Positions 4,172 through 13,047 of a stretch of DNA of 15,379 bases are shown here, in pieces. Source of the stretch: Chitinophagaceae bacterium (GTDB lineage Bacteria; Bacteroidota; Bacteroidia; Chitinophagales; Chitinophagaceae); the NCBI GenBank assembly GCA_025455205.1, contig JALOMZ010000009.1, positions 1 to 15,379 on the forward strand, given 5' to 3'. A program made the position numbers and the translations under genes. Positions within the stretch are counted from its first letter, which is position 1, and every line of letters begins with the position of its first letter. The notes beneath the pieces are model-generated. The model did no database searches. It saw only the letters and a list, made by a program, of their open reading frames with translations, and was not told the origin of the DNA.

Positions 4172-6664
4172 ATGCAGGACATTTTAGCAGGATTGAATGA
4201 GCAGCAGCGCGAAGCCGTGGTACATAAAGATGGCCCGCTGATGATTGTGGCCGGAGCCGGCAGTGGTAAAACCAAGGTACTTACCACCCGTATTGCCTAC
4301 CTCATGGGGCACCACGGCGTGGATGCCTTCAACATACTGGCCCTCACCTTCACCAATAAGGCTGCCGCCGAAATGAAGGAGCGGATCCAGAAACTGCTGG
4401 GCAACAGCGAAGCGCGCAACCTGTATATCGGCACCTTCCACAGCGTATTCGCCCGCATCCTGCGCGGGGAAGCCCACCATATTGGCTATCCCAACAACTT
4501 CACCATCTACGATACCGACGACAGCCGCAGCGTGATCAAGACCGTGGTGCAGGAGCTGAACCTCGACGACAAGACCTATAAGCCCAACGTGGTGCACAAC
4601 CGCATCAGTTCCGCAAAAAACGCCCTGATCACGCCGGAAGAATATGCCCAGGACCACCACATCCTGCAGGAAGATGCCCGCCAGAACCGGCCGGCCATGG
4701 CCCGCGTATACGATGCCTACTGCAAGCGCTGCTTCAAGAATGGCGCCATGGACTTTGATGACCTGCTGCTGAAGATGTATGAACTGCTGCGCGACTTTCC
4801 CGCCGTACTGCATAAATACCAGCACAAGTTCAAATACGTGATGGTAGACGAGTACCAGGATACCAACACCACGCAGTACGCCATCACCAAACTGCTGGCC
4901 GCTGCCCACGAGAATATCTGTGTGGTGGGCGATGATGCCCAGAGCATCTACAGCTTCCGCGGCGCCACCATCGAAAACATCCTGCAGTTCCAGAAAGACT
5001 ACGAAGACGTAAAGGTGGTGAAGCTGGAACGCAACTACCGCAGCACGGCCACCATCCTGAACATCGCCAATGAGGTGATCAGGAACAATAAGAACCAGCT
5101 GCCCAAGGAACTGTGGACCGAAGCCGATGCCGGCGACAAGGTGAAGATCGTGCGGGTGATGACCGACAACGATGAAGGCCGCTTTGTGGCCGACGCCATC
5201 CAGGAGCAGAAACTGCGCAACCATTTCAGCAACCACGACTTCGCCATCCTCTACCGCACTAATGCCCAGAGCCGGGCCTATGAAGAATGCCTGCGCCGCA
5301 TGAATATACCTTACCGCATTTATGGTGGTATCAGCTTTTACCAGCGCAAGGAGATCAAAGACTTCCTGGCCTACCTGCGCATTATTGTGAACACGCGTGA
5401 TGAAGAGGCCCTGAAGCGCATCATCAACTACCCGGCGCGGGGCATCGGCAAAACAAGCATCGAAAAACTGGTGACCGATGCCAACGAGCGCGGCATCAGC
5501 ATGTGGAAGGCCCTCGAAAATGCCCAGCAGCTGGGCATTCGCGGCGGCAGCCTGGAGAGCATGCAGGCCTTTGTGCAGATGATCAAATACTTCCAGAGCA
5601 TGCTCAAGCAGAGCACGGCCTACGAAGTGGCCTTTCAGGTGGGTAAGCATACCGGCATTGTGAAGGAACTTTTCAACGACAAGAGCGCCGAAGGCCTGGC
5701 CCGCTATGAGAACATACAGGAATTACTGAACTCCATCAAGGAGTGGGTGGATGATGCGGAAAACCGCAGCATGATTGACGACGAAGGGGTGATCCTTGAA
5801 ACCCCGCCGCCCACAGATATGCCCGCCGCCGCTGACGAAAACAATGGCCTGCTCTTTGGCAATGAGACACCCGCCGATGCAGCACCCTCCGGCACTTCAG
5901 CTTCGGTGGCTTCCCTGGGCGCCTACCTGCAGCAGATCACCCTGCTCACCGATGCCGACAACGACAAGGATGAGAACGCCGATGTGGTGAAGCTCATGAC
6001 CATCCACGCCGCCAAGGGGCTGGAATTTCCCTGCGTGTTTGTAGGCGGTATGGAGGAAAGCCTTTTCCCCAATGCCATGGCCATCAATACCCGCGAGGAG
6101 CTGGAAGAAGAGCGGCGCCTGTTTTATGTGGCGGTAACCCGCGCCAAGAGCAAGCTCTGGCTCACCTATGCACAGAGCCGGTACAAATTCGGGCAGATCA
6201 CGGCCAATGAGCCCAGCCGCTTCCTGGATGAGGTGCCAACGCAATATGCCGATCGTACCATGGCCGGCGGCGGCCTCCGCAACCAAGGCGGCAGCATGAA
6301 CTTTGGCGGCGGCATGAGCGCCTTCGAAAGATTGCATGGCGGCCGGGGTGGCGTAAGTAGTGGTAACAGTGCTGCGGCGGCAGAAAAACGATATGGCCCC
6401 CCGCCCGGTAAAACCGGCGCCAAGCCTTCTTATGTAGGTCCTGCGCAGCCGCCCAAGGTGAAGGAGCACCAGCCCTCGCCCGACTTCGTACCCAGCGACA
6501 CCAGCAACCTGCAGGTGGGCGACAAAGTGGAACACCAGAAGTTTGGCTTTGGTGTGGTGATCAAAATGGAGGGCGCCTCACACAATCCGATCGCTACGGT
6601 CAAGTTCGACCAGAACGGCGAAAAGAAGATCATGCTCAACTATGCCAAGCTGCGGATATTCTGA
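4172..6664 (+). CDS. pcrA: UvrD/Rep/PcrA-type superfamily 1 DNA helicase
   Basis: ATP-dependent 3'-5' helicase of superfamily 1, acting in nucleotide excision repair, mismatch repair and replication-fork maintenance in the cytoplasm. The 830-residue protein shows all motifs: Q motif LNEQQREAV at 8-16, Walker A AGAGSGKT at 27-34, TFTNKAA (Ia) near 59-65, VDEYQD (II) at 225-230, GDDAQSIYSFRG (III) at 253-264, NYRST (IV) at 288-292, TIHAAKGLEF (V) at 610-619, and VAVTRAK (VI) at 653-659. Residues 540-600 are an acidic, Ala/Pro-rich insert before motif V. A Gly-rich linker (698-735) leads to a Tudor-like C-terminal domain (NLQVGDKVEHQKFGFGVV, 779-796) that in PcrA binds RNA polymerase. The ATG at 4172 begins the conserved N-terminus. 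Its stop lies 49 bases before the next regulator gene, so read-through into module 1 is possible. Confidence 0.93.
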   Translation: MQDILAGLNEQQREAVVHKDGPLMIVAGAGSGKTKVLTTRIAYLMGHHGVDAFNILALTFTNKAAAEMKERIQKLLGNSEARNLYIGTFHSVFARILRGEAHHIGYPNNFTIYDTDDSRSVIKTVVQELNLDDKTYKPNVVHNRISSAKNALITPEEYAQDHHILQEDARQNRPAMARVYDAYCKRCFKNGAMDFDDLLLKMYELLRDFPAVLHKYQHKFKYVMVDEYQDTNTTQYAITKLLAAAHENICVVGDDAQSIYSFRGATIENILQFQKDYEDVKVVKLERNYRSTATILNIANEVIRNNKNQLPKELWTEADAGDKVKIVRVMTDNDEGRFVADAIQEQKLRNHFSNHDFAILYRTNAQSRAYEECLRRMNIPYRIYGGISFYQRKEIKDFLAYLRIIVNTRDEEALKRIINYPARGIGKTSIEKLVTDANERGISMWKALENAQQLGIRGGSLESMQAFVQMIKYFQSMLKQSTAYEVAFQVGKHTGIVKELFNDKSAEGLARYENIQELLNSIKEWVDDAENRSMIDDEGVILETPPPTDMPAAADENNGLLFGNETPADAAPSGTSASVASLGAYLQQITLLTDADNDKDENADVVKLMTIHAAKGLEFPCVFVGGMEESLFPNAMAINTREELEEERRLFYVAVTRAKSKLWLTYAQSRYKFGQITANEPSRFLDEVPTQYADRTMAGGGLRNQGGSMNFGGGMSAFERLHGGRGGVSSGNSAAAAEKRYGPPPGKTGAKPSYVGPAQPPKVKEHQPSPDFVPSDTSNLQVGDKVEHQKFGFGVVIKMEGASHNPIATVKFDQNGEKKIMLNYAKLRIF

Positions 6665-6713: not shown

Positions 6714-8435
6714 ATGGGGCGGTATCTGCTAGGTTTATCCCTGTTCTTGTGCGCCGCAAATACCCAGGCGCAGCCCGACAGCCTGATACAGGTACCCGAA
6801 TCCTGGGGCTCCAAGGTGATCATCCGGGTTTTTGATCATTACCTGAAGCCCAACAGGGTGGATTCAGGTATTCAGCTCCTGCAGCAAATGTCGGCCGCTT
6901 ATGGCCGAGAGGGCAAGCCCATTCTTCAGCAGAATGCCTGGGTGTTTGCCCAGGTACTGGCAGGATCCAAAATAGAGGACTTAGAAGCCAAGATCAGCAT
7001 GCTGGACAAGCAGTCGGCATGGGCGTTGAAAAAGGGCTGGCCCTCCGCTGCAACGCAACTGCAGTTCTTTATAGGCACCGCCTGCTACGACAGCGGACTG
7101 AAGGGGAAGGGTTTTGAATACTTGCTGCGTGCGTATGGGAAGCTGGAACAAATGGACCCCGCCAGTATGCCTTTGCTGTATTACTATGCACATCATCTGG
7201 CCAGCATATATTATAACCTCGGCGATTTTGAGAACAGTGTTCGCTTCGTTGGTACCTACGAAAACACAGATACCGCGTTGCTGCCGGAAGCTGACCGGTT
7301 TGGGTTTCGGAATTCCATGGGCCTGGCCTTCATGCAGCTGAAGAAGTACGACAGTGCCGATGCCTTCCTGGCAAAGGCCCACCACGCTTCCAGTTTGCGG
7401 GGCGACACCATGTGGATGGCGCTGATCCATGGCAACCTGGGTGCTTCGTTATGGGAACAGGGCAGGCTGAACGAGGCATTGCCCCTGCTGCAAAATGATT
7501 ATGCAACAAGCCTGCAGTATGGTAATCGCAGCAGTGCTGTGAATGCCGGCCTGTTGATGGCCAGGATCTATCTGGCCCGGCAAGAGCTTGCAGCATTGGC
7601 GCAGATCATGTCGGCCATTGATACACTCATGCCTTCGGCAGAAAGTGCAGCTACCAGGCAGCAATATTTTGAGCTGAAGTTTCAGCTGGCGCAAAGGCAG
7701 GGGCGGTGGCAGCTGGCCGCAGCCATGGCCGACTCCGCCATATGGTACCACTCCTCGGCCGACAAAGACCGCAATAATGCCCTCAGCCTTCGCATACGCA
7801 ACAAACTGGAAACCGAAAATTACCTGAACAGCATTGCCACCCTGCAGGCACAGAAGGATACCGAGATCATGTTGCGCAATGCCCTGCTGGCCCTGGTGGT
7901 AACGGGCACCATGGTGGTGCTGCTGTTTATCAACCGTTACCGGATCAAGAAGCAGAAAGAGGCGGATGCGGCCTACTACGCCAGGCAGATTGCCGAAGAC
8001 AAATTGCAGCTGGTGAAATCCGAGCTGGATCAGTACACCCTGCGGATGAAGGAGAAAGCCGCCCTCACCCAGCGGCTGCAGGAAGAAATAGAGGCACTGA
8101 GGCAGGAGCACCAGCAGGTATCGGCCGAAAGAGAAAACGTACTGCAGCAACTGCTGCAGGCCACCATCCTTACGGAAGAAGACTGGACCACCTTCCGGGA
8201 ATTGTTCGAGAAAGTGCATCCCGGCTTCCTGGTGCGTCTTCGCCAGACCTTCCCCGACCTTACACCTGCCGAAACCAGGCTGCTGGTACTCACCAAGCTG
8301 CAGCTGTCGAACAAAGAGATGACGGCCATGCTGGGCATTGGCTATGATGCCATCAAGAAGACCCGGCAGCGCCTGCGCAAAAAAATTGATCTGCCCGAGG
8401 ATGGCGGACTGGAAGATCTTATCCAGCAGATCTGA
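6714..8435 (+). CDS. Membrane-anchored TPR / LuxR-type HTH regulator, module 1
   Basis: 573-residue single-pass regulator. Residues 1-19 form a signal peptide (MGRYLLGLSLFLCAANTQA). Residues 20-370 are helical with TPR-like repeats, clearest at about 157-180, 198-226, 236-266 and 275-306, and should lie in the periplasm. A membrane helix spans about 387-407, followed by basic residues and a Glu/Gln-rich coiled coil to about 480. The C-terminus (515-560) is a GerE/LuxR-like HTH beginning LTPAETRLL, with a recognition region around GIGYDAIKKTRQRLRKK. This topology is a one-component membrane transcription factor: periplasmic sensing, cytoplasmic DNA binding. The start at 6714 matches the paralogue at 9970 residue for residue; an in-frame ATG at 6642 overlaps the helicase gene and would bury the signal peptide. 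No receiver or kinase domain is present. Its likely targets are the heptamer arrays at 8479-8531 and 11732-11784 (inference). Confidence 0.85.
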   Translation: MGRYLLGLSLFLCAANTQAQPDSLIQVPESWGSKVIIRVFDHYLKPNRVDSGIQLLQQMSAAYGREGKPILQQNAWVFAQVLAGSKIEDLEAKISMLDKQSAWALKKGWPSAATQLQFFIGTACYDSGLKGKGFEYLLRAYGKLEQMDPASMPLLYYYAHHLASIYYNLGDFENSVRFVGTYENTDTALLPEADRFGFRNSMGLAFMQLKKYDSADAFLAKAHHASSLRGDTMWMALIHGNLGASLWEQGRLNEALPLLQNDYATSLQYGNRSSAVNAGLLMARIYLARQELAALAQIMSAIDTLMPSAESAATRQQYFELKFQLAQRQGRWQLAAAMADSAIWYHSSADKDRNNALSLRIRNKLETENYLNSIATLQAQKDTEIMLRNALLALVVTGTMVVLLFINRYRIKKQKEADAAYYARQIAEDKLQLVKSELDQYTLRMKEKAALTQRLQEEIEALRQEHQQVSAERENVLQQLLQATILTEEDWTTFRELFEKVHPGFLVRLRQTFPDLTPAETRLLVLTKLQLSNKEMTAMLGIGYDAIKKTRQRLRKKIDLPEDGGLEDLIQQI

Positions 8436-8478
8436 CCACCCTTTTCCTGAAACCATTGACTGACAGGCTGTTCTGGCC

Positions 8479-8531
8479 TGTCCCCCTTTTTGTCCCCGTC
8501 TTTTTCAGGGCTTGTCCCCGCTTTTGTCGCC
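8479..8531 (+). promoter_or_regulatory. Four-unit TGTCCCC operator-like array, module 1
   Basis: Four direct heptamers: TGTCCCC at 8479-8485, 8491-8497 and 8513-8519, and TGTCGCC at 8525-8531. Spacers are CTTTT (5), 15 bases, and GCTTT (5). Units within each pair are 12 bases apart start to start, about one helical turn, and the pairs are 34 apart. The array ends 44 bases before the small membrane protein ATG. The same layout recurs at 11732-11784. This fits a site for a dimeric activator; binding by the HTH regulator is inferred. Confidence 0.7.
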
Positions 8532-8575
8532 ATGCAAAAAACGCATGTAGGTAAAAGCCTGGGCATATTGCGGTC

Positions 8576-8725
8576 ATGTTGCACGATGCGCCGAATAACA
8601 ACAACAAAGCTTTTCACACCGCAGCATGGATAGCAGCAGTGCTGGTTATCAGCCTGCTGCTTATCCTGCTTATCTGGTGGTATTTTGAATACCGCATTGC
8701 GGTTATTGATCAAAAAATAAACTAG
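8576..8725 (+). CDS. Small single-pass membrane protein, module 1 (49 aa)
   Basis: Encodes 49 residues: a polar Asn-rich start (MLHDAPNNNN), one strongly hydrophobic helix at about 18-36 containing AAVLVISLLLILLIWWYF, and a short tail RIAVIDQKIN. Length alone would not make it convincing, but the second module has a homologue (11830-11973) in the same position. Over the last 31 residues the two agree at 21 positions, including ISLLLIL, IWWYF and the RIA-ID tail. It lies 9 bases before the secreted fibre gene, so the two are probably co-translated. No signal-peptidase site is evident after the helix, so it should stay in the membrane. Function unknown; it could tether or help export the fibre, or talk to the regulator's membrane helix. 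Confidence 0.75.
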   Translation: MLHDAPNNNNKAFHTAAWIAAVLVISLLLILLIWWYFEYRIAVIDQKIN

Positions 8726-8734
8726 CCTACTATC

Positions 8735-9820
8735 ATGAAATTGAAACACCTGATTTACCTGCTGCTGCTGAGTCAGTTTTCCCGGGCCCAGAACATTGGG
8801 ATTGGTACCACCCAGCCGCAGTCGCCGCTGGATGTAAAAGCTGCTTCAGCCGGCCCATTGATCATGTTAGAAAATACCACGCCGATGGCTGAGACTGCCC
8901 TCAGGCTTCGATCTAACTGGCCTTCAGACGGCAGCTCCAACACAACAATTACCCTGGGACTGCAAGAATCAAAATTTAATATTTACGCTAGCGTTCCTCA
9001 ATATCCGCAATATAAAATCAGTCTCCTCACATTGGCCCCCGTTCAACCAGATAGTTATGCGGGGGGTATCAGAACGGGCATTAACACCTTCAATCCGCAG
9101 GCGCCACTGCATGTAAGAGGCAGCGCCACGTCCACCATTGCATCCAATATCACTTTCTTCAATGCCGAAGCTGCCGGCATAAACGGAATAAGGAGTACCC
9201 CCAACTGGACCGGCACCGTGGTCGGCTACTTTGAAGGTAATGTGGTAAGCACCATTTCCTTCATTGCTGCCGCCAACAACATATTCTCCGACAAAAGGAT
9301 CAAGGACATCATCGGCCAATCCAATGGAGCTGAAGATCTGGAGAAACTGCGCCGCATTGCCATCACGCGGTATCGTTACAAAGACAAATGGCAGATGGGT
9401 GATGCTGTGCATACCAAGGTCATTGCGCAGCAGGTGAAGGAAGTGTTTCCGGAAGCGGTGTCGCAGATCCGGAACTATGTGGCCGATGTATTGAAGGAAG
9501 CACAGGTGCTGCAGCGCCAAAACAATACCACCACCATTGAACTGATGGGTGGTGCCACCCTGAAACCTGGTGTGCGGATCAAGTGCTTCACCCCCACCGG
9601 TTCGGAGATATACGCCACGGTGCTGTCTGTACAGGGCAACAACTGCACGCTGGATCAGGCTGTGGAAGCCGACCGCTTATTTGTGTATGGAACCGAAGTG
9701 CCCGATTTCCATGTGGTGGATTACGATGCCATCAGCATGCTGAATGTAAGTGCCACGCAGGAGTTGCTGCGCCGGATTGAAGCGCTGGAAAAGGAACTGG
9801 AGGCGCTGAAGAAAAAGTAA
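8735..9820 (+). CDS. Secreted fibre-like protein with S74-type chaperone domain, module 1
   Basis: 361 residues with a signal peptide at 1-18 (MKLKHLIYLLLLSQFSRA). The mature end begins QNIGIGTTQPQSPLDV, and a second related unit occurs near 112-129 (GIRTGINTFNPQAPLHVRGS); these units are common in beta-helical tail-fibre-like proteins of Bacteroidota. From about 183 the protein resembles the intramolecular chaperone/peptidase S74 domain of phage tail spikes: FSDKRIKDI at 184-192 includes Ser185, Asp186 and Lys190, then VIAQQVKEVFPEAV at 229-242. In known S74 proteins this domain trimerises the fibre and then cuts itself off before the Ser. A further beta-rich segment (265-330) and a heptad-like tail (345-361) follow. 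It probably forms a trimeric surface fibre; no receptor is known. Bases 8941-9060 are AT-richer than neighbouring genes. Confidence 0.75.
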   Translation: MKLKHLIYLLLLSQFSRAQNIGIGTTQPQSPLDVKAASAGPLIMLENTTPMAETALRLRSNWPSDGSSNTTITLGLQESKFNIYASVPQYPQYKISLLTLAPVQPDSYAGGIRTGINTFNPQAPLHVRGSATSTIASNITFFNAEAAGINGIRSTPNWTGTVVGYFEGNVVSTISFIAAANNIFSDKRIKDIIGQSNGAEDLEKLRRIAITRYRYKDKWQMGDAVHTKVIAQQVKEVFPEAVSQIRNYVADVLKEAQVLQRQNNTTTIELMGGATLKPGVRIKCFTPTGSEIYATVLSVQGNNCTLDQAVEADRLFVYGTEVPDFHVVDYDAISMLNVSATQELLRRIEALEKELEALKKK

Positions 9821-9969
9821 GCAGACATCAGTTGAGATACATGCCGGTGTGAGGGGGCGGCAGTAATGTCATGCTCCTGAGCCCCCAGCATCCCGTGCCT
9901 GCCTCGTTGGTGATGCCGCCTTTGCTCAGGCAGATCATTTGACGCCGGGCCTTAACTTCATCCTGCATT
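9821..9969. other. Gap between modules 1 and 2
   Basis: 149 bases separate the first fibre gene from the second regulator. No TGTCCCC array is present here, in contrast to the gaps inside the modules. A GGGGGC/GCCCCC pair (9853-9858, 9881-9886) has a 22-base loop and no T tract, so it is not called a terminator. A 36-codon frame opens on the minus strand (9828-9938) without a recognisable product. Confidence 0.4.
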
Positions 9970-11691
9970 ATGAAAAGGATCGGGTTCATTCTATGCTGTC
10001 ACCTGCTGATCTGGTGTGCGCGGGCACAGCCTGATTCCTTGATGCAGCTAAGCGGAGCAGCCGGCCGGCAGGCACTGGAACAACTGTATGGTTCCTTCGC
10101 CAATCCTGATTCACTCCACAAGGGCATTGGGGTATTTGATAAGTTGACGGCGCATTACCGGCAGCAATCGCAGTCGCACATGGAGCAGTCGGCATGGCTC
10201 TTCGGTCAGCTGCTGCGTACGCATCAGGCCGCTACAATGGCAGACAAGCAAAAAAGCCTTCAGAAGGCGAGGAAACAAGCGGTTGCCAATGGTTGGCCGG
10301 TGGTGGAGGCTGAACTGCAGTTGTACCAGGGGCTCTACTTTTTCGAGGCAGGCGAGAAAGGACCTGGCTTTGAGAACATGCTGCGCGCCTTCGGCAACAT
10401 GGAGCGCCTGGGTTTCGACAAGCATCCCTGGCTGGCAAAATACAGCGTAGTGCTGGCAAACAGTTATTTCGCCCTGGGTGATATGGAGGGCACGGTGCGC
10501 TATGCCCCCTTTTTTGAAAATGCACCTGATGCCTGGAACAAACAAAGTGCCCGATTTTATTTCCGCAATACCATCGGGCTGGCATACCGTGATATGGAGC
10601 GCTACGACTCGGCGGCCTGGTTCTTTCAAGAGGCCTATGAATCGGCCCGACTTGCCAGCGACAGTTTCTGGATGGCACTTTCCCTGGGCAACCTGGCCGC
10701 TGTGTATTACGATGAGCAACGGTATGCGGAGGCCATTCCTTATTTGCAAACAGATTTTGCCGCCAGCAGGCGATTTGGCCAATGGGGCAGCATGCTCAAT
10801 GCTGGGCTCATGCTGGCCGACTGCATGGTCAGGACGGGGCGTGTGAACGAGGCCCGCACCATAGCAGCCGTCATCGATTCAATGGCCGGCAAGAGTACAG
10901 GAGCCAACACGCTGAAGCTGTGGTACAAACTGCAGTTTGACCTGGCCAAGGCCGATGGGCGAATGGCCGAGGCCTTGCGCTTTGCCGACTCTGCCCTGGT
11001 ATATCAAAGCAAAGTAGGGAGCAAGCGTAATGCCGATCTTATCAATGCAACACGCAACAAGCTGGAAATGGAAGGCTACCTGCACAGCATTGAAAACCTG
11101 CAACAACAAAAAGAAAAAGAGATCCTGCTGCGCAATGCCCTGCTGGCCATCATCCTGTTGAGTACGGTCATTGCTGTGCTGTTCATCAACCGCAGCCGGC
11201 TGCGCCGCAACAAACAACTGGCGGAAATGGCCTTTGAAAAACGCATGGCTGATGAAAAGTTGCACCAGCTGAACCACGACCTGGAGCAATTCACCCTGCG
11301 CATGAAGGAAAAGACGCTGATGCTGGAGCGTTTTGAGCAGGAGTTGAACCTGCTGAAGCAATCCGGGCAGGCGCAGGCCAGCGAAACAGACAGGGCGATG
11401 GAGCAAATGCTGCAGGCCAGCATCCTTACGGAGGAAGAATGGCAGCAATTCCGCGAACTGTTTGAGAAAGTGCATCCCGGTTTCCTGTCGAGGCTCCGGA
11501 TGAGGCTACCCGACCTGACGCCGGCAGAAACCCGCCTGCTGGTGCTTACCAAACTGCAGCTCAGCAGCAAGGAAATGGCGGCCATGCTGGGCATTGGGTA
11601 CGAAGCCATCAAGAAAACCCGGCAAAGGTTGCGCAAGAAAATTGACCTGCCGGAAAACGGCGGCCTGGAGGATCTCCTGGAAATGATCTGA
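9970..11691 (+). CDS. Membrane-anchored TPR / LuxR-type HTH regulator, module 2
   Basis: Paralogue of the regulator at 6714, also 573 residues, aligning end to end without a gap. Signal peptide 1-19 (MKRIGFILCCHLLIWCARA), the same QPDSL mature start, TPR-like helices at about 159-182, 198-228, 236-266 and 276-306, membrane helix 387-407 (ILLSTVIAVLFIN core), coiled coil to about 480 and a GerE/LuxR-like HTH at 515-560. Over 481-573 it matches its paralogue at 78 of 93 positions and within the HTH at 43 of 46, whereas over 101-140 only 16 of 40 agree. So the DNA target is probably shared while the sensed signal may differ. The start at 9970 is the first ATG of the frame and puts the signal peptide at the N-terminus. 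It lies 149 bases after the first fibre gene and may have its own promoter; none is clear. Confidence 0.85.
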   Translation: MKRIGFILCCHLLIWCARAQPDSLMQLSGAAGRQALEQLYGSFANPDSLHKGIGVFDKLTAHYRQQSQSHMEQSAWLFGQLLRTHQAATMADKQKSLQKARKQAVANGWPVVEAELQLYQGLYFFEAGEKGPGFENMLRAFGNMERLGFDKHPWLAKYSVVLANSYFALGDMEGTVRYAPFFENAPDAWNKQSARFYFRNTIGLAYRDMERYDSAAWFFQEAYESARLASDSFWMALSLGNLAAVYYDEQRYAEAIPYLQTDFAASRRFGQWGSMLNAGLMLADCMVRTGRVNEARTIAAVIDSMAGKSTGANTLKLWYKLQFDLAKADGRMAEALRFADSALVYQSKVGSKRNADLINATRNKLEMEGYLHSIENLQQQKEKEILLRNALLAIILLSTVIAVLFINRSRLRRNKQLAEMAFEKRMADEKLHQLNHDLEQFTLRMKEKTLMLERFEQELNLLKQSGQAQASETDRAMEQMLQASILTEEEWQQFRELFEKVHPGFLSRLRMRLPDLTPAETRLLVLTKLQLSSKEMAAMLGIGYEAIKKTRQRLRKKIDLPENGGLEDLLEMI

Positions 11692-11731
11692 TGCCCTCCC
11701 CAAAACCCCTTCATTCACAAGGATTTGTGAT

Positions 11732-11784
11732 TGTCCACCTTTTTGTCCCCCGTGCTTTTTGCGGGTGTCCCTGCTTTTGTCACC
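11732..11784 (+). promoter_or_regulatory. Four-unit TGTCCCC operator-like array, module 2
   Basis: Heptamers TGTCCAC (11732-11738), TGTCCCC (11744-11750), TGTCCCT (11766-11772) and TGTCACC (11778-11784), separated by CTTTT, 15 bases and GCTTT: the same spacing and the same two 5-base spacers as at 8479-8531. The array ends 45 bases before the small-protein ATG. Conservation of spacing while the sequence between array and start codon differs points to selection on the array itself. Confidence 0.7.
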
Positions 11785-11829
11785 CCTCCCGTAGTGCCCA
11801 TCTGGTCATTTGCCCTTCATCTTGCAGCC

Positions 11830-11973
11830 ATGCCTGCAAAGGAGCCCAACACAACATCCCGCCACACGTACCAATGGATGGCAGCAGTGCTGTTGATCAG
11901 CCTGCTGCTCATCCTGTTTATCTGGTGGTATTTCAGCGCTCGCATTGCAGCCATCGACCATCAACTTCACTAA
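11830..11973 (+). CDS. Small single-pass membrane protein, module 2 (47 aa)
   Basis: Encodes 47 residues: polar start MPAKEPNTTSRHTYQ, a hydrophobic helix at about 17-35 (MAAVLLISLLLILFIWWYF) and the tail SARIAAIDHQLH. Homologous to the 49-residue protein at 8576, with the helix core and the IWWYF and RIA-ID motifs kept. The frame is open from an ATG at 11731, but that start lies at the very edge of the heptamer array and would give no counterpart to module 1, so I chose 11830. Nine bases separate its stop from the next start, exactly as in module 1. Function unknown; strict co-location with the fibre gene suggests they work together. Confidence 0.75.
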   Translation: MPAKEPNTTSRHTYQWMAAVLLISLLLILFIWWYFSARIAAIDHQLH

Positions 11974-11982
11974 ACCAACCCT

Positions 11983-13047
11983 ATGCGTTTCATTGTATTG
12001 CTATCCGGCATGCTGCTCCTGTTCCAATTCACCAGCGCCCAGAATGTGGGCATTGGCACCAACAATCCCCTGGATAAACTTCATGTGGCAGGCGGGATTC
12101 TTTCAGACGGCTTAAGGATTGATGGTGGCAGGTACAGTGATATTTTGGCCCAGGTAAATTTCAATCGAGACATTACTGACCAACAACAACTGGTAGCAGA
12201 TCAGAAAAGTCTGGTGTTAGAAAAATTTGCTACTGCCTGGCAGTCTTTCACCGCGGGTATGTCTGGTGAATTGGTTTCCATTAGCTTCATGCTCAATACT
12301 ACCATATCCCAGGTCAGATTTACCCTATACACAGGCGAAGGAACAGGCGGCACGCCCTTGTATTCTGCGATACTCTCCCAAGCCATCGACTTAATAAGCA
12401 CGGGTTTTAGCACCGCCAAAATTTACGGGGTTAGGCTAACCGCCGGACAAAAATATACGTTTGCAATCGGCAACAACACCGGGGAAAGGGAAGTCTTCAT
12501 TCGAGGCACTGAGAATGATTCTTACCCAGCTGGAAAAAGTAGTTTTGGTGCGGCTGATTTTACTTTTAGAACTATTGTTAACGGCACCGTACCTGGCTTG
12601 GTCGTCAAGAATGAGGGGATGGTGGGCATCGGCACCAGTAATCCTGCCAGCCTGCTCGATGTGGCCGGCAACCTGAATGTTTCGGGGAACATTACGCTGG
12701 GCGGAACCCTCAATTACAACGGTTCATTTGTCAATGAAAGCCCCATCAGCCTTCCCATGAGCAACGGCTGGGTGAATTATGGTTCAGGCTTTCAGGGGGC
12801 CACCTACTACAAGGACCGAAATGGCATTGTGCACCTGGAGGGATTGATCAAGAACGGCACCAGTAATGTGATTGCGGTATTGCCTGCAGGCTACAGGCCG
12901 GGGGCTGCCCAGATTTTCATAGGCGTAAATGGATATGCGGGTTTTGCGCGTATCGATGTCAATCCGAATGGTACCGTCAGTGCCGTTGCACCCTATACCA
13001 ATGGCTATCTGAGTCTCAGCGGTATTACTTTCAGGGCAACCCAATGA
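11983..13047 (+). CDS. Secreted fibre-like protein without S74 domain, module 2
   Basis: 354 residues with a signal peptide at 1-19 (MRFIVLLSGMLLLFQFTSA). The mature end QNVGIGTNNPLDKLHVAGG matches the N-terminal design of the module 1 fibre. Residues about 80-200 look like a beta-sandwich of the kind seen in adhesins and extracellular enzymes (AWQSFTAGMSGELVSISFML, then RLTAGQKYTFAIG). A second VGIGTSNPASLLDVAGN unit lies at 214-230, followed by a Gly/Asn-rich strand region and a C-terminal domain (260-354) containing WVNYGSGFQGATYYKDRNG and LPAGYRPG, a pattern seen at the ends of phage tail and other receptor-binding proteins. There is no S74 domain, so it is not expected to self-cleave. 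Bases about 12110-12560 are AT-richer than the flanks. Probably a surface or secreted adhesin-like fibre; ligand unknown. Its stop is 24 bases from the stop of the convergent kinase gene. Confidence 0.7.
   Translation: MRFIVLLSGMLLLFQFTSAQNVGIGTNNPLDKLHVAGGILSDGLRIDGGRYSDILAQVNFNRDITDQQQLVADQKSLVLEKFATAWQSFTAGMSGELVSISFMLNTTISQVRFTLYTGEGTGGTPLYSAILSQAIDLISTGFSTAKIYGVRLTAGQKYTFAIGNNTGEREVFIRGTENDSYPAGKSSFGAADFTFRTIVNGTVPGLVVKNEGMVGIGTSNPASLLDVAGNLNVSGNITLGGTLNYNGSFVNESPISLPMSNGWVNYGSGFQGATYYKDRNGIVHLEGLIKNGTSNVIAVLPAGYRPGAAQIFIGVNGYAGFARIDVNPNGTVSAVAPYTNGYLSLSGITFRATQ

Follow-up and report, generated by a model that had tools for sequence, protein, structure and literature searches.

Organization of the tandem cassette and distribution of its regulator

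The window analysed here, a stretch of 15,379 nucleotides (nt) at positions 1 to 15,379 of contig JALOMZ010000009.1 from a Chitinophagaceae bacterium (Bacteroidota; GenBank assembly GCA_025455205.1), carries two consecutive copies of a cassette composed of a predicted membrane-anchored regulator that combines tetratricopeptide repeats (TPR) with a helix-turn-helix (HTH), a micro-membrane protein and a secreted fibre-like protein (Table 1). The two tandem trios, reported in a preliminary description made from the DNA letters alone, were confirmed in gene order, strand and protein length, with gaps of 140 and 138 nt between regulator and small open reading frame (ORF) and of 9 nt in both copies between small ORF and fibre gene. 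An element overlooked by that description lies in each regulator-to-small-ORF gap and comprises four TGTC half-sites in a common 12-22-12 nt layout. In relatives, the steadier core of the system appears to consist of the regulator, its array and the micro-protein, the last chiefly within the window's family; the earlier proposal that regulator, small protein and secreted product evolve as a unit was not borne out, the secreted gene being the part that changes.

Table 1. Genes and predicted elements of the two cassettes, in window coordinates (aa, amino acids; TM, transmembrane)
Feature	Position	Strand	Description
regA, regulator A	6714-8435	+	573 aa; predicted signal peptide, TPR solenoid, one TM helix (by eye), coiled coil, C-terminal HTH
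Putative operator array A	8479-8530	+	TGTCCC 8479, TGTCCC 8491, TGTCCC 8513, TGTCGC 8525
-7-like promoter element A	8564-8571	+	CATATTGC; ends 4 nt before smA ATG; leaderless mRNA possible
smA, micro-membrane protein A	8576-8725	+	49 aa; one predicted TM segment plus W-x-[YF]-xx-RI-xxID-xK tail
fibA, secreted fibre-like protein A	8735-9820	+	361 aa; predicted signal peptide, GIGT motif, S74 intramolecular chaperone domain, C-terminal coiled coil (by eye)
regB, regulator B	9970-11691	+	573 aa; regA-like architecture; K549 and Q552 in predicted helix 544-558
Putative operator array B	11732-11783	+	TGTCCA 11732, TGTCCC 11744, TGTCCC 11766, TGTCAC 11778
-7-like promoter element B	11818-11825	+	CATCTTGC; ends 4 nt before smB ATG
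smB, micro-membrane protein B	11830-11973	+	47 aa
fibB, secreted fibre-like protein B	11983-13047	+	354 aa; predicted signal peptide, GIGT motifs, C-terminal part weakly like a lactococcal phage receptor-binding protein

The two copies share 43% identity between regA and regB and 57% between smA and smB, and the significant alignment of fibA with fibB is limited to the N-terminal GIGT part (52% identity over 29 aa). In a tree of 68 regulators regA and regB are sisters with a support of 100. The tandem probably originated by duplication of the whole cassette, with the fibres afterwards diverging or being exchanged. Other genomes likewise have two family regulators near each other on the same strand (L066, L067 and L111). 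An alternative upstream start would extend regA to a 597-aa ORF from position 6642, while the start at 6714 yields a signal-peptide-like N-terminus. The remaining ORFs of the window look chromosomal rather than mobile or prophage-derived, according to our own reading of the ORF list; no search was aimed at mobile elements.

The AlphaFold model, calculated for regB, displays a TPR solenoid (residues 29-348), one long helix (352-482) that contains the TM segment, and HTH-like helices (488-558), with an overall predicted local distance difference test score of 81.5 that falls to about 55-77 per block over the last 90 residues. The regulator is predicted to be exported and anchored in the inner membrane, presenting a periplasmic TPR sensor, one TM helix, a long coiled coil and a cytoplasmic C-terminal HTH. 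Pfam and NCBIfam returned TPR plus weak other profiles only. Structural matches of the TPR part include Rap proteins, the best being designed TPRs and LGN, and are thus generic.

Regulators were found at E<=1e-20 in at least 80 of 294 genomes of the same family and, with a profile at E<=1e-40, in at least 54 of 395 genomes across the phylum; both counts are lower bounds, up to four (family) or three (phylum) candidates having been scored per genome. The family scan listed 120 places, and the loci analysed exclude 35 of the weakest. A scan of named genomes, in which loci were found through HTH patterns, added 69 loci (L143-L211), including Niastella, Flavihumibacter, Flavipsychrobacter, Taibaiella, Mucilaginibacter, Pedobacter, Spirosoma, Algoriphagus and Flagellimonas. 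One of these, in a record titled Azovibrio restrictus (L170), encodes a regulator almost identical to one from a Bacteroidota bin (L172), suggesting a mis-binned contig.

The putative operator array and the predicted recognition helix

Tandem half-sites about 11 nt apart, such as TGTCCC, TGTAACG, TGTGACG, TGCAGC and similar units, are present among the regions downstream of 86 family regulators. Exact 6-mer repeats, searched at spacings of 8-16 nt, occur at a lag of 11 nt downstream of 26/86 regulators, compared with 1/86 upstream regions, 14/488 regions after other genes and 10/430 shuffles. A strict array definition, with spacings of 10-12 nt, was applied to 168 non-redundant regulators and identified arrays downstream of 68 (12 with three or more units), upstream of one and in 28/3360 shuffles; the units are separated by 11 nt (53 cases), 12 nt (24) or 10 nt (7). 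Under a looser rule requiring at least two units, arrays follow 42/86 regulators on the coding strand and 12/86 on the opposite strand and precede 7/86, with 57/487 after other genes and 83/452 before other genes, the latter including cargo promoters; some of these two-unit arrays are doubtful (e.g. L037, L072, L082). With at least three units the values are 13/86 downstream versus 0/487 after and 7/452 before other genes. In the phylum and named loci the looser rule gives arrays in 57/95 cases. Other families also carry related arrays, among them TTGTTTAC-TTGTTGAC and TTGTCCAC-TTGTCCAC; outside the window's family arrays are frequent and small ORFs rarer.

When 67 downstream regions were anchored on the last array unit, a T/A-rich element ending in G was observed at +12 to +18, followed by TT at +44/45, a layout which we take to be that of the Bacteroidota -33/-7 promoter. 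A strict -7 pattern lies 3-8 nt before the ATG of 12/36 small ORFs versus 38/498 control genes, and a leaderless mRNA is possible for the small ORF in some cassettes; neither smA nor smB displays this strict pattern. The adjoining array and the promoter-like pattern make it likely that the regulator controls its neighbouring genes, as previously suggested.

Outside one repeat-rich genome (G104), the exact array TGTAACG-N4-TGTAACG lies beside a regulator in 5/10 sites, and the form TGTAACGCTTTTGTAACG does so in 4/4. What stands out is the position of this pattern beside regulators, not its abundance. In G104, dispersed intergenic repeats of 11-nt units (TGTAACGGCTA...) followed by GGCTCTTTAAAGAG mimic the operator (L252, L260, L262-L272), and no regulator was found within 1.5 kb of the 13 matches listed; TGTAACGNNNNTGTAACG, searched over 288 genomes, gave 15 matches in this genome. 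A large regulon in the window's genome was considered and rejected: TGTCCCN{4,7}TGTC gave 11 matches versus 22 for the reversed control, three of the 11 lying in the two gaps of Table 1, in a genome that is 62% complete. The array evidence is weakened by the 100/168 regulators that lack a strict array, by criteria that were chosen after viewing the sequences, and by the bare TGTAACG pattern, which is not enriched (10 matches versus 23 for the reversed control outside G104).

Among the 68 array-bearing regulators, residue 549 (regB numbering), which with residue 552 sits in the predicted recognition helix 544-558, is the most informative of all protein columns on the fifth and sixth bases of the array unit (mutual information of 1.03 and 0.92). 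In the 65 regulators with C or A at the sixth base (the three with G or T were not counted), base and residue agree in 63. Lys or Arg accompanies C in 35/36 rows (K 32, R 3, N 1), and other residues accompany A in 28/29 (V 13, Q 7, T 5, N 2, S 1, K 1). The two mismatches involve a locus with mixed units (L084) and one with a doubtful array (L187). In places, closely related rows switch together: in the sister rows L171, L179 and L189, K occurs with TTGTCCAC and Q with TTGTCACC, and V with TTGTAACG in L100 lies beside R with TTGTCCGC or TTGTCTCG in L109 and L111. When the test was confined to the HTH region, residues 549 and 552 were the best two columns (1.03 and 0.76; label-shuffle limit 0.594).

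Several results, however, limit this interpretation. The runner-up columns to residue 549 in the whole-protein test score 0.87 and 0.75, and five further columns exceed the label-shuffle limit in the HTH-region test. Columns distant from the HTH score 0.87 and 0.94 for the seventh and eighth unit bases, so kinship alone yields high mutual information. A tree built without the HTH contains six operator changes; in independent pairs on supported branches residue 549 changes the same way in about four of five or six, never in the opposite direction and with one pair showing no difference (sign test p=0.125), while residue 552 does so in about two of six, sometimes in the opposite direction (p=0.5), and finds no support in such pairs. 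The agreement in 63/65 regulators suggests that the HTH reads the array, with kinship remaining an alternative source of this agreement.

The micro-membrane protein and its variable neighbours

An iterated profile of the small protein, run against 13643 short ORFs from 81 sources, gave 37 matches at E<=0.01, of which 30 start between -40 and 300 nt after a regulator stop on the same strand; of the remaining seven, five have a regulator no more than about 420 nt away, in either direction. Over 288 whole genomes the profile matched in 40. Thirty loci, one per genome, were examined, and 26 present a regulator-like frame within 1.5 kb, although one of these (L248) is doubtful, the small-protein match lying inside a long frame. 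The profile was seeded from regulator-adjacent ORFs; leaving out the 7/30 loci from seed genomes, 18/23 lie within 1.5 kb of a regulator, one is doubtful and four (L240, L242, L246 and L247) have no regulator within that distance. The small ORF is coding and under purifying selection; the proportion of nonsynonymous differences is below that of synonymous ones (pN<pS) in 35/35 pairs with at least 45% identity over at least 35 aa. The protein database holds two close, unnamed homologues (90% and 73%), and matches beyond the window's family comprise a Saprospiraceae bin, Spirosoma and a few others. In L060, L072 and L095 the small ORF is upstream of or divergent from the regulator, not downstream, and in L084 and L089 a second subfamily, with a TM segment plus an ESWQRSRKI tail, replaces the main one.

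The secreted products of the window look like phage-tail-type proteins. As in S74 fibres, fibA contains an S74 domain (Pfam PF13884, E 1.2e-10) with S185 and K190, which are presumably the catalytic Ser-Lys pair, and it matches MYRF in the PDB; the C-terminal region of fibB weakly resembles a lactococcal phage receptor-binding protein (E 0.004). Elsewhere, regulator, small ORF and GIGT gene follow one another in the same order in L034, L059, L089 and L101, where the small-to-cargo gap ranges from -19 to 19 nt; in other relatives the secreted gene varies. The cargo of L071 is near-GIGT, and L101 contains three successive GIGT-type secreted genes after regulator and small ORF, a local cargo expansion.

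Cargo was surveyed in 36 small-ORF cassettes, 30 with a small ORF at E<=0.01 and six weaker. From the 36 next genes called, 30 were scanned, six judged spurious or unrelated being left out (including L053 and L072). They contain the sorting domain of the type IX secretion system (T9SS; 7 genes by Pfam or 8 by NCBIfam), Ig_7 (4), PKD (3), S74 (2), LytTR (2), FISUMP (2), PorP/SprF (1) and others, a match to Tectonin in one gene (Pfam) being among them. Lipoproteins also occur among the cargo of relatives, and several cargo genes encode large secreted proteins that extend past the examined region. By manual reading of N-termini, made without a matched background, a secreted gene is next in 25/34 evaluable small-ORF cassettes and in 13/17 array-only cassettes; the 36 divide into 25 secreted, two LytTR, seven other, spurious or none, and two not evaluable (L041 masked, L081 at a contig end). 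A cruder secretion rule, superseded by this reading, had given 26/36, against a background of 211/468 and 7/15 where neither array nor small ORF was present. The cargo appears exchangeable across cassettes. The LytTR DNA-binding genes that take the place of the secreted gene in L035 and L036 may form a regulatory cascade, and the cargo behind the small ORF in L061, L085 and L091 shares an N-terminal motif (QDIAVGKNG..WATG, with variants).

Candidate mechanism and relation to known systems

We consider it probable that the cassette encodes an activator of the adjacent operon, in which a one-component regulator of SusR architecture acts through its own array, with the micro-protein as membrane partner and a surface protein as cargo. 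Each copy would be a self-contained one-component switch with the periplasmic TPR solenoid as sensor. Several HTHs would sit side by side on one DNA face, on the array just past the regulator's own stop, and the bound regulator would activate a Bacteroidota-type promoter downstream of the array. The micro-membrane protein would be the first product, perhaps translated from a leaderless message in some of the cassettes, and the secreted cargo, here a phage-tail-like fibre, the second. Across genomes the micro-protein is associated with the regulator and not with one cargo kind; it may thus be the regulator's partner, placed next to it in the membrane for dedicated feedback, most likely of a damping nature. 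The computations show the array, the promoter-like pattern, a coding small ORF and the association of these parts; activation, topology, and the feedback role with its sign are inferred. Against the scheme, no same-strand ORF of at least 80 aa begins in the 420 nt that follow the small ORF of L058 or L110.

The micro-protein might instead serve the cargo, as a membrane chaperone, by guiding its export, or through translational coupling with the small ORF as leader, with the regulator merely controlling a two-gene surface operon. The near contiguity of small ORF and cargo in the GIGT trios and the frequency of secreted cargo behind the small ORF would suit such a helper. However, a single small-protein family stands before unrelated cargo classes, its next gene is a LytTR gene in two loci, and most array-only cassettes have a secreted gene without the small ORF, leaving the helper a tentative explanation of lesser likelihood. 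A regulator that acts as a repressor, or an array that attenuates or terminates the regulator gene with small ORF and cargo being transcribed otherwise, is distinctly improbable: although the region directly after the regulator stop is a plausible place for such elements, the array keeps a constant distance to the -33/-7-like pattern behind it, as expected of an activator site, and is directional (42/86 on the coding strand versus 12/86 on the other) rather than upstream of the regulator.

A local duplication without functional link, with regulator, small ORF and fibre being neighbours by chance, would be compatible with the absence of a regulator at E<=1e-20 from 4/5 same-genus genomes searched, and with the 31/86 family regulators that, by the criteria used, have neither array nor small ORF. 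The latter also weigh against the activator scheme; either not all members conform or the criteria miss arrays and small ORFs. The pairing of array and small ORF with the regulator is common, not obligate. Trio and core are nevertheless also present in further genera, both within the family and outside it, and operator base and HTH residue agree almost throughout, making chance a most improbable account. It is also conceivable, though quite unlikely, that the micro-protein is a ligand whose tail in the periplasm binds the groove of the TPR sensor, the cell thereby gauging micro-protein or surface output, whether its own or that of neighbouring cells. If so, Gram-negative Bacteroidota would possess a membrane-tethered equivalent of RRNPP receptor-peptide logic, with an operator dedicated to it, a DNA code readable from one residue and surface cargo that can be interchanged.

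Returning to the adjacent-operon activator, candidate operators, targets and a specificity residue are now offered for a class of Bacteroidota membrane regulators, together with a family of tiny membrane proteins that has no name. If the code holds, the operators of many such regulators would be predictable from sequence, and the control of T9SS adhesins and phage-tail-like surface fibres would be open to experiment.

No description of the make-up of regulator, array, micro-protein and cargo was found in the searches made of the open-licence PubMed Central (PMC) literature, in agreement with the preliminary statement that no such system was known, which does not extend to the regulator architecture, that of the known SusR-like membrane regulators. 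In the available part of their description, SusR-like regulators of Bacteroides are membrane proteins with a periplasmic sensor and a cytoplasmic HTH, often located beside their target locus, with predicted direct-repeat operators of two boxes 67 or 77 bp apart and a motif similarity that tracks regulator similarity (PMC3878776, Ravcheev et al. 2013). The present family resembles them in its predicted membrane-regulator architecture, its probable adjoining target and its putative direct-repeat operator. It differs in half-sites spaced every 10-12 nt, in targets that are mostly surface proteins and in the micro-protein, which is no part of that available description (PMC3878776). Membership of the SusR family was rejected on operator spacing, within the 10-12 and 8-16 nt ranges searched, and on profile score: NCBIfam NF058541, whose cut-off is 480 bits, scores regB at 20 bits as a partial match (best stretch 351-451) and does not list regA at E<=1. 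In a scan confined to the 30 cargo genes, the families shown (25 of the 39 from Pfam, 10 from NCBIfam) include none for polysaccharide utilisation. The top-scoring NCBIfam profile for both regulators is the BT3442 family (NF053779), which covers residues 324-560 of regB, including the HTH, with 27 bits, far below the cut-off of 940; the one paper found under BT3442 concerns, in the part available, the structure of a MACPF protein (PMC2954219).

Large SARP activators such as AfsR contain TPRs and, in the portion of the source at hand, bind direct repeats 11 bp, one helix turn, apart at the promoter (PMC10936776). TPRs and promoter-proximal direct repeats 11 or 22 bp apart, with the 12-22-12 layout in the window copies, constitute the likeness. 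SARP membership was rejected, as the SARP DNA-binding domain is N-terminal and accompanied by a BTA domain, while here the model places the TPR part N-terminally and HTH-like helices C-terminally, the protein is predicted to be membrane-anchored and Pfam reports TPR plus weak profiles. In RRNPP receptors the HTH precedes the TPR repeats, and the product of the neighbouring small ORF is secreted, processed and bound in the TPR groove. Here HTH-like helices follow the TPR part and the small ORF encodes a TM protein, and this assignment was likewise rejected. The likeness to RRNPP pairs, described in the available text as a regulator gene next to a small ORF with intracellular receptors (PMC10075063), consists of the adjoining small ORF and the generic Rap matches, in contrast with a TPR part predicted to be periplasmic from a signal-peptide-like N-terminus and a TM segment. 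Transmembrane transcription regulators, one-component DNA-binding proteins of the cytoplasmic membrane that are frequent in Bacteroidia (PMC10269533), form the general class to which this regulator would belong; the terms LuxR, TPR, tetratricopeptide and small protein are absent from the available main text of that paper. Thus, being by the tests made neither SusR, SARP nor RRNPP, the family appears as a SusR-like architecture among the transmembrane transcription regulators.

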